From NCBI GenBank assembly GCA_902509965.1, contig CABWZP010000008.1:1-40542 (forward strand): 40,542 nt of DNA. Reading direction: 5' to 3'. The DNA comes from an uncultured SAR86 cluster bacterium. Its GTDB lineage: Bacteria > Pseudomonadota > Gammaproteobacteria > Magnimaribacterales > D2472. Shown here one piece after another: positions 16,979-19,546 of the stretch (position 1 is its first letter; each line of letters begins with the position of its first letter). The notes beneath the pieces were generated by a model. It saw only the letters and a program-made list of their open reading frames with translations, was not told the DNA's origin and did not search any database. The position numbers were made by a program, and so were the translations under genes.

Positions 16979-17599
16979 ATGAGTTTTGAAGAATTAAGAG
17001 TAATCATCATAGTCTATGTATCTGCATTACTACCTATTTACTTAGTACTAAAGAATAGATCTGTCTTACCTGATTGGGTTCCAGGTATATATATTGGTGC
17101 ATTTATTACATGTGCTCTCGGGTGGGAGTTATGGTTCACCTATGGATGGGTTGATGGTGATTCTGTTGATATAAGACGTTCAGCAAACTTAAATCAATGG
17201 CTCCCTTTACATATAAATTGGTTAATGAACTCCTTGGCAGATGCTGGAACAATTACATTAGGTGGATTATGGCTCATGTGGATGCAGGCAAAGAAAGACT
17301 ATAAGATTTTTACATACTGGAACTGGTCAGCATTTAGTGTATTTATGCTTTGGTGTATTGGTCAAAATATTTTCGTTGAAATGTTTCTTTATCATGATCA
17401 ACTTTCCGAGGGTAAAGATTTATCTTGGGCACCTCTATCTCCAGCAGGACCATACCTTAACCCTGTATTATTTGAATTTAATGATCGGAGTCTAATGCTA
17501 CAAACTCAAATACCTTGGTTAATTCTTCCAGCGTTTATATATAAAGCAGTTATTCTTCTAAATAAAAAGGGGTCATATGAAATGACCCCAGAAGATTAA
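16979..17599 (+). CDS. Unrecognised multi-pass membrane protein
   Basis: I do not recognise this 206-aa protein. It has about five membrane segments (around 7-24, 37-54, 80-105, 117-137 and 176-195). It is unusually rich in Trp, many of them near membrane borders (GWELWFTYGW, NQWLPLHINW, GGLWLMWM). Conserved-looking polar positions inside or next to helices include Glu50, His77, Asn79 and Glu/His in EMFLYHDQ. There is no signal peptide or known motif. It is a single gene, divergent from the crotonase and converging on the copper-lipoprotein gene across a strong inverted repeat. Confidence 0.75.
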   Translation: MSFEELRVIIIVYVSALLPIYLVLKNRSVLPDWVPGIYIGAFITCALGWELWFTYGWVDGDSVDIRRSANLNQWLPLHINWLMNSLADAGTITLGGLWLMWMQAKKDYKIFTYWNWSAFSVFMLWCIGQNIFVEMFLYHDQLSEGKDLSWAPLSPAGPYLNPVLFEFNDRSLMLQTQIPWLILPAFIYKAVILLNKKGSYEMTPED

Positions 17600-17662: not shown

Positions 17663-19546
17663 TTAATAATGCGACTTAGTTTTAAAGCTAAGCTCTCCGG
17701 AACTATTGGTTTGTCCATGGTAACCTTGTCCAGCTGGCATATAGAAGGTAATACCTGGATATTCTTTAAATTCATGTGCATGTTGATCGTCTCCAGCATC
17801 AGCTGTTCTTAAATAAACTTTATGTGTATAACCTGAAGCACCCTTGTATGGTCCTACAGAAACTGTGCCATTTACCTCTAATGCTCCAGAATTTTCACTA
17901 ATATCTAATTTTGATTGATCATATGTTGTCACTATTTCTATTCTTCCATTTGTATACATACCTGCATGGACTCCGCAATGAGGATATAGAACTGATGGTG
18001 TGTCAGCCGTTACAGTAAGAGTATTATTAGACTGGCTCCACCCTTCATTTGAACCAATATTATTATTTCCAGCAGTGTCATTTTGGGCAGTAGAAATTTC
18101 AAATGGATGTGCTGTGAAAACACTATTTGCAGTTGGCTCAAAGACAATAGTATCTCCAACTCTTGCATATATTACTAAAGGAGTTGAATCTGCATTAACT
18201 CCATCAACTGTATAGTATGCAGAGCCGCTATTTCCGACTGTATAGGTTGTTGTTCTAAAGTTTTCAACGTCTGTAAGATTCGTTCTTGAGCTTTTATCAG
18301 AAATCCATTGCAAAGTATCAAAAATTATTTGATCAACTTCAGCACTATCAACTGTATCATCCAAAATGCCTTTGAGAAGAGGAGTAACATAATCTCTTGC
18401 TGTCATTGAGAAATATGCTTGTTCATTATTTGAGTCAACATAAACCTTCTGTAAAAAAGAAGAGAAGCTTCCTGATAGATTTTCTAATTGTGCATTGGTA
18501 ACTGTATAGTTAGGTAAATCAAGATTAAGCAGCACGTCTCTCACAAGAGTTGTATCACCGAGGGAGGTTTCGGTTAGAGCATCTCTATTAAAAATCGCAT
18601 CATTGATTGTAGAAACAGCTGTTAAGTTCGAAGCACCAGACTGGGTTTGGAGGACGCTAAGGGATTCATACATCATAAGCAACTGAGTATTTACTAAGGC
18701 AGCTTTATTTGAAGCAGCATCATTAACACTTAAATAGGGATCATCAAAACGAATCATGAAGTTTGAGTCAACACCTAGCTTCTCCTTAAGGGATTGATAA
18801 GTGAACCTATTATCAACATAAAGCATAGTACTCAATGGTGAGATAACTAGATTTTGTTCAGTAGTAGGATCAATTAATCCCATAATAAATGAATCTGCGT
18901 CATCAGTAACAGGATTGAAACCATCTTCAGCTAATAATTTTATAGTGGTAGTAATATTGTCATCTAATTCTAATGAGAATGAACCATCAGAGTTAGTTGT
19001 TGTTGAGTAATATGCACCTTCACAAGTGTCATCTCCATCTGCATCAGTGGTCGCCATGCAAACAGTTGCAGATTGAATATATCCATCTCTAATCAAAACT
19101 CCATCAAAATTAAATGTTGTCGAATCATCGGAAGTGTCATTTGTTACCGTTACACTAAAGTTCTGACTAGCAGATGCAGTTCCATCTGTTACTGACACTG
19201 TTAGTGCATAGCTGTTATCGCTATTTGCGTCTGTAGGAAACTCAAAATCGGGTGCTGTAATGAAGGTAACAATGCCTGAAGAGCTTATATTAAATAATGA
19301 ACCATCTTCACCGCCGCTAATCGAGTAGGTTAATGAGTCTCCGTCTGCATCAGATGCTGAAACTGTAAAAGCGGATGTTTGGTTTTCTATAACAGAATAA
19401 GAAGTAGTAGATCCATCAATAACTGGTGGATTATTTGGGTTGTAGCCACCATCGCCACCACCTGAGCTAGAGCCACCACCGCCGCCACCACCGCATGCTG
19501 TTAATATTAAAAGGGGGAGTAATTTATTTATAATACTTTTTTTCAT
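17663..19546 (-). CDS. Large lipoprotein with cadherin-like repeat and C-terminal cupredoxin domain
   Basis: This 627-aa protein begins with a lipoprotein signal peptide ending LTAC (Cys18), followed by a Gly-rich linker. Residues about 40-135 form one cadherin-like module (SASDADGDSLTYSISGG ... VTDGTASASQNFSVTV) with acidic, Ca2+-binding-type loops. Residues 145-205 look like a surface beta-sandwich with a Cys pair (163, 175). The middle is helical. Residues about 430-540 look like a cupredoxin: His480 (AHPFEIS) and Cys524-x2-His527-x2-Met530 (YPHCGVHAGM), the ligand set of type-1 copper sites. The tail holds more histidines (589, 591, 610, 626). Anchoring in the outer membrane and copper binding or electron transfer are inferred. 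It is transcribed alone. Confidence 0.8.
   Translation of the reverse strand: MKKSIINKLLPLLILTACGGGGGGGSSSGGGDGGYNPNNPPVIDGSTTSYSVIENQTSAFTVSASDADGDSLTYSISGGEDGSLFNISSSGIVTFITAPDFEFPTDANSDNSYALTVSVTDGTASASQNFSVTVTNDTSDDSTTFNFDGVLIRDGYIQSATVCMATTDADGDDTCEGAYYSTTTNSDGSFSLELDDNITTTIKLLAEDGFNPVTDDADSFIMGLIDPTTEQNLVISPLSTMLYVDNRFTYQSLKEKLGVDSNFMIRFDDPYLSVNDAASNKAALVNTQLLMMYESLSVLQTQSGASNLTAVSTINDAIFNRDALTETSLGDTTLVRDVLLNLDLPNYTVTNAQLENLSGSFSSFLQKVYVDSNNEQAYFSMTARDYVTPLLKGILDDTVDSAEVDQIIFDTLQWISDKSSRTNLTDVENFRTTTYTVGNSGSAYYTVDGVNADSTPLVIYARVGDTIVFEPTANSVFTAHPFEISTAQNDTAGNNNIGSNEGWSQSNNTLTVTADTPSVLYPHCGVHAGMYTNGRIEIVTTYDQSKLDISENSGALEVNGTVSVGPYKGASGYTHKVYLRTADAGDDQHAHEFKEYPGITFYMPAGQGYHGQTNSSGELSFKTKSHY

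Follow-up and report, generated by a model that had tools for sequence, protein, structure and literature searches.

The gene at positions 17,663–19,546 of the window, the 40,542-nucleotide stretch of SAR86 DNA analysed here, is best described as encoding a SAR86 envelope lipoprotein in which a domain like those of type-1 copper proteins, belonging to a largely marine and uncurated kind, is joined to a private C-terminal domain. The reading that we favour, at a probability of about 0.5, is a type-1 copper protein anchored in the envelope, perhaps with a second metal site, that would serve in copper handling or tethered electron transfer. Its parts are not equally firm: the cupredoxin-like domain very probably holds a type-1 copper site, with copper as the metal that we infer, and that the protein mainly handles copper or transfers electrons is proposed more tentatively, at slightly less than even odds. 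In the mechanism that we envisage, a stalk made of a cadherin module, a beta domain and a helical part would carry the cupredoxin domain near the end of the protein, and one copper ion would be bound there by His480, Cys524, His527 and the axial Met530, as in other type-1 proteins with the short C-x2-H-x2-M loop. The fused C-terminal domain would add a second metal site adjoining the cupredoxin domain (H-x-H, His610, His626, Met603), and the job of the whole would be to hold copper or single electrons at the cell envelope, or to pass them on, in sea water poor in copper. SAR86 is abundant in the ocean and difficult to grow; copper is scarce for its cells, and the domain offers a defined, testable site.

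Table 1. Features of the gene and its product, with positions in the window.
Feature	Position	Strand	Evidence
Signal peptide and lipobox LTAC; Cys18 lipidation site, +2 Gly	19493..19546	-	sequence
Cadherin module, residues 38-137	19136..19435	-	Pfam; AlphaFold2 model; Z 12.6 to cadherin repeats (protocadherin-15)
Beta domain, residues 142-235, with Cys163 and Cys175	18842..19123	-	model; PF13620 matches
Helical stretch, residues 236-417	18296..18841	-	AlphaFold2 model
Cupredoxin-like domain, residues 431-540	17927..18256	-	model, structure search, profile comparison
His480, proposed Cu ligand	18107..18109	-	invariance
Cys524, proposed Cu ligand	17975..17977	-	invariance
His527, proposed Cu ligand	17966..17968	-	invariance
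Met530, proposed axial ligand	17957..17959	-	invariant in family; Met 25, Gln 2 of 27 elsewhere in SAR86
SAR86 C-terminal domain, residues 541-627; His589, His591, Met603, His610, His626	17666..17926	-	alignment, distribution, conservation
Terminator-like hairpin 3′ of the stop codon	17569..17589	-	weak: 2 in region vs 1.3 expected (shuffles)

The first-pass annotation had placed an open reading frame at 17,663–19,546 without naming a strand; the frame is genuine and lies on the minus strand, where it runs from an ATG for 627 amino acids, the plus-strand reading being full of stops. The lipobox that it had described is present (LTA-C18, followed by Gly), and Cys18 is found in all 17 homologues having that column of the alignment; the outer membrane is the most likely place for the lipoprotein to be anchored through Cys18, with Gly at +2. 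The fold of the single cadherin-like module, claimed as well, was confirmed on the AlphaFold2 model, and in Pfam its match to Cadherin (PF00028; E 2.4e-6, 28.3 bits) lies slightly below the 28.8 cut-off, while its match to Big_9 exceeds the cut-off of that family. Because L018, from another SAR86 family, has no cadherin module, this part lies outside the protein core. The ‘long helical middle’ of the annotation held for residues 237–417, which the AlphaFold2 model builds as helices (block-mean pLDDT 71–93 for the stretch as far as residue 400, lower after), but not for residues 142–235, which form a beta domain. The latter bears a weak likeness to the carboxypeptidase regulatory domain in both model and Pfam (PF13620 matches in 9/13 homologues at E ≤ 0.1, the lowest E being 3.3e-5), and its two cysteines are conserved in 17/18 homologues each.

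The full-length AlphaFold2 model (17 aligned rows) is poor over residues 409–627, and the matches listed by a structure search with it were filled by cadherins. The model of residues 431–540 was built from 101 aligned rows and has a block-mean pLDDT of 79–98 across model residues 11–110. This model appears to bear out the C-terminal cupredoxin-like domain that had been claimed, with moderate scores. Foldseek ranked a rusticyanin first in the PDB (E 3.1e-3, probability 0.97), and its top nine PDB matches are all rusticyanins, with E from 3.1e-3 to 8.0e-3; after them come laccases, nitrite reductase, pseudoazurin and AcoP. A rusticyanin is also the best VIA-align match (Z 7.7, rmsd 3.0, 95 aligned), and 48 of the best 50 matches listed are rusticyanins, laccases (a two-domain laccase included) or nitrite reductases; the other two, an ephrin complex and factor VIII, we take to have the cupredoxin fold too. 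In the model the Cys ends strand 95–100, the first His stands just ahead of strand 58–61, and the second His and the Met lie in the loop preceding strand 110–114; this order along the strands agrees with the putative ligands lying near one another. The fold could instead be a different beta sandwich in which Cys and His are conserved for other reasons, in line with there being no VIA-align match to the domain model at Z ≥ 8, below which the program warns of a mere common arrangement, and no Foldseek match to it in the PDB at E ≤ 0.001. The make-up of the VIA-align matches and the match of the wide profiles to pseudoazurin make this very improbable.

That profile match was obtained against 18 SAR86 pseudoazurins, with E 3.2e-6 (probability 88%) and E 1.3e-6 (91%) for the wide profiles A8 and A7, and E 3.4e-4 (38%) for the family-only profile A5. 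In 3/3 comparisons C524 and H527 were aligned with the Cys and His that bind copper in pseudoazurin. H480 was aligned with the pseudoazurin His in a single comparison, that with the family-only profile; with the two wide profiles the template His fell beside a second His of the phage forms. When the PDB was searched by sequence, the best match of the wide profile was a pseudoazurin at just E 0.075, and with the family profile outer surface protein A chains (E ≥ 0.25) outranked pseudoazurin (E 0.85). The annotation knew of no named family with this order of parts; neither the domain nor the whole protein is covered by a Pfam or NCBIfam family. PF00127 had no match in the window protein or in 13 relatives at E 0.1; in the domain alignment (A7) it reached E 0.008 in one of eight members, and the cupredoxin families of Pfam and NCBIfam gave single-member matches alone, at E 0.008 to 0.06.

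The proposed metal-binding residues had been placed exactly, as the alignment confirms (His480, Cys524-x2-His527-x2-Met530, His589, 591, 610 and 626). Full or long homologues occur in 18/61 genomes, the window's own genome counted, and H480, C524, H527, M530, H589 and H591 are invariant in all 18; H610 and H626 are present in the 17 homologues extending that far, the 18th (L017) breaking off in frame. The same six residues are kept in 50/50 family loci in genome contigs and H610 and H626 in 49/50, the exception (L079) again breaking off in frame; one of the two search patterns behind this 50-locus set included the Cys-His-Met stretch, a bias from which the 18-homologue set is free. Judged from these sequences, conservation of the putative ligand pattern is beyond chance. 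Residue 523 is His in 12/18 homologues and Tyr in 6/18 and is therefore an unlikely ligand. Outside the family, the best 30 profile-matched loci less three family members provided 27 domains of other SAR86 proteins, several of them near-identical, which have His-Cys-His in every case and an axial Met in 25 and Gln in two. Since Gln is the axial ligand of stellacyanins, the swap between Met and Gln speaks for a type-1 site that works.

The site might alternatively hold zinc, another metal or none, with Cys524 as a free thiol; ephrin, which is among the VIA-align matches, has a cupredoxin fold without copper, so copper-free versions of the fold do exist. We consider this improbable, as the alignments have His-Cys-His and an axial Met (or Gln) in cupredoxin order and the genome encodes another blue copper protein. 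The latter (G000:C14:3973-4233, L266) is a true pseudoazurin, with E 1.8e-26 to a solved pseudoazurin, and PF00127 scores above cut-off in 29/41 SAR86 genomes, the window's genome included. PCuAC chaperones were found in 5/41 genomes; the window's genome is not among them, and we therefore draw no link to these chaperones.

AlphaFold2 gives no confident fold for residues 541–627 (block-mean pLDDT about 28–45). No Pfam family reached its cut-off in this domain among the window protein and 13 relatives, and a search of the PDB by sequence returned nothing convincing for 541–627 (best E 0.37). Its profile has matches at E 0.01 in 52/203 genomes of the SAR86 order, two of which (G032, G497) have partial copies, and in 2/369 genomes of the class, these being the window's genome and one of its family; by these profile matches the domain is nearly confined to SAR86. 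A second metal site, made up of the H-x-H pair, M603, H610 and H626, would have an even chance of being real on the strength of the conserved residues. Other assignments of 541–627 were rejected. A cupin (H-x-H-x3-E and a later His) has too short a Glu-to-His spacing here for the cupin motif, and the profile matches of 13 relatives included no cupin; a second cupredoxin has no profile relation to the cupredoxin-like domain, and the match to the Rhamnogalacturonan lyase C-terminal domain (E 0.003) is far below cut-off. The proteins of the family end in Tyr in 48 of 50 cases (L032–L081), though the tail past KSH[YF] varies from 0 to ∼18 residues; the two without it have an ambiguous codon near the end (L078) or are a broken copy (L079). 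This last Tyr may serve as a mark for recognition.

Pseudoazurin and plastocyanin (PF00127) have the His...Cys-x2-His pattern in common with the window protein, at a wide-profile E of about 1e-6, but the axial Met of SAR86 pseudoazurins is at Cys+8 and that of the window protein at Cys+6, and pseudoazurin is a short protein whereas the window protein is a stalked multidomain lipoprotein without a PF00127 match. Rusticyanin, the best structural match to the domain model at 16–19% identity among the VIA-align matches listed, has a longer ligand loop and, unlike the window protein, is not multidomain. A multicopper oxidase would have two or more cupredoxin domains and a trinuclear site; one cupredoxin domain is recognised in the window ORF, and the C-terminal domain, for which the model gives no confident fold, has no profile relation to it. 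Other SAR86 lipoproteins (L155; L048 6756-8441) share the lipobox, the cadherin module and the C-terminal cupredoxin domain with it but have another middle domain and lack the C-terminal His domain. The C-x2-H-x2-M loop is that of amicyanin, and azurins space their ligands as C-x4-H-x3-M. Lipid-modified azurin (Laz) is of the azurin family and a different chain, with neither a cadherin module nor a C-terminal His domain, and its azurin-type ligand loop is absent from the window protein, which reads C-x2-H-x2-M. What Laz, from Neisseria, has in common with our protein is a cupredoxin on an envelope lipoprotein, according to one paper (PMC6277709); cupredoxin domains also occur in coccolith proteins, as another states (PMC11685980). 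Searches of an open-licence library turned up nothing pertinent on cupredoxins in SAR86, cyanophages or phage tail fibres, and no report of a pseudoazurin for SAR86.

The 50 family loci are filed under SAR86 (43), Gammaproteobacteria (4), Pseudomonadota (1), the K189A clade (1) and ‘Uhrbacteria’ (1). The last of these, a 7.4 kb contig filed as Candidatus Uhrbacteria (L037), carries a member of the family with 77% identity over the C-terminal part and is probably mis-binned. Matches of the family-only profile occur in 4/369 genomes of the class, all in the window's order and the window's genome among them, and in the window's own genome alone among 299 genomes of the phylum. The wide-domain profile has matches in 98/202 genomes of the SAR86 order, and the SAR86 open frames carrying the wide domain are up to 3,942 amino acids long. 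At three loci (L048:6756-8441, L047:1032-2717 and L035:6606-7901) a second cadherin lipoprotein with another middle domain lies in tandem directly downstream; the copies of L047 and L048 end in a phage-type cupredoxin domain, and that of L035 is without it. Another carrier of the domain would be a 600-amino-acid open frame (L160), which ends in it and has repeated Asp-rich D-x-N/D-x-D-G stretches that look like those of FG-GAP/VCBS-type repeats.

The domain is abundant in viral contigs, where a scan confirmed at least 564 loci; among the best 80 of these at least 564, an equivalent of His480 is present in 80/80 (77 H-P, 3 H-D or H-A), at a position that lay outside the search pattern. A viral copy of the domain found matches at E 1e-5 in 201 of 50,697 phage records, and the window protein's own C-terminal part found them in 14 at E 0.01; there was no match in the plasmid collection. 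Ten phage regions keep the His throughout and C-x2-H-x2-M in nine, P-RSM6 being without the loop. By PHROGs the domain is found mainly in phage tail proteins, the families matched being tail fibre connector, tail fibre, baseplate, virion structural and two of unknown function. PHROG 677, the baseplate wedge tail fibre connector gp9 of marine T4-like phages, was matched at E ≤ 0.001 by 8/8 members of the domain alignment (A7), the window's included; the likeness is limited to the domain, PHROG 677 being a phage tail protein whereas the whole window protein is not a phage protein. Beyond these, PF25489 (At5g54830-like domain) gave weak matches in 3/8 domain members (best E 0.029), and could possibly be a eukaryotic relative of the domain. 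Foldseek also matched the domain model to a ‘Beta-sandwich protein’ in records of Marseillevirus and Pithovirus, at E 2.0e-4 and 4.1e-4, and the domain may reach giant viruses.

The phage copies count against electron transfer, since a tail protein offers no obvious partner for it. They bring in a different explanation, namely that the domain is a metal-stabilised structural or adhesion module, a sturdy metal-locked Ig-like fold on stalks and fibres that would serve in display or attachment and not in redox chemistry. Its occurrence in both tail fibre and baseplate wedge tail fibre connector proteins fits this, as do the very long SAR86 open frames that carry it and the cadherin module on the same chain. 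On the other side, conservation centres on the copper ligands, with the exchange of axial Met and Gln, and a purely structural role would leave the C-terminal His domain without a reason. We regard this explanation as less likely than the favoured one, though it is a serious contender and the strongest of the alternatives. If the site is a copper site throughout, a blue-copper module without a curated family would be spread through the ocean: on lipid-anchored stalks and very large cadherin-bearing proteins in SAR86, and on tail fibres and baseplates in cyanophages, pelagiphages and other marine phages, with one SAR86 lineage having added a private second metal domain. We advance this with some reserve, at a little below even odds. 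If true, many marine virions would be copper proteins; since many ocean viruses have the domain in their tail proteins, the sea may commonly harbour a copper protein module that has been overlooked. Copper on the phage copies would put a redox metal on tail fibres where the host is touched, which would be surprising. A curated domain model would in any event name many proteins presently called hypothetical.

The gene neighbourhood bears on the choice between redox and structural roles in both directions. In seven of the 50 loci, all of one genus (L036, L038, L039 and L041–L044), the gene is flanked by a peroxidase of catalase type (PF00141, in two stretches) on one side and an AhpC/TSA redoxin on the other, the three sharing a strand; one further locus has the peroxidase only and one the redoxin only. 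This flanking suits a redox role and speaks against a structural one, though the loci are close relatives. The redox neighbours are not constant, as a structural module would allow: outside this genus the neighbours are unrelated and differ between genera. They include adenylate kinase, holo-ACP synthase, an Era-like GTPase and a queuosine pair, and their counted clusters occur in 24–28 of the 50 loci. Neighbours of the window's type are found in three of the 50 loci (L032–L034), which are near relatives. A membrane-type protein of 206 amino acids at 16979-17599 on the plus strand, with no Pfam family at cut-off, is convergent to the gene in the window and adjoins it in 3/50 loci.
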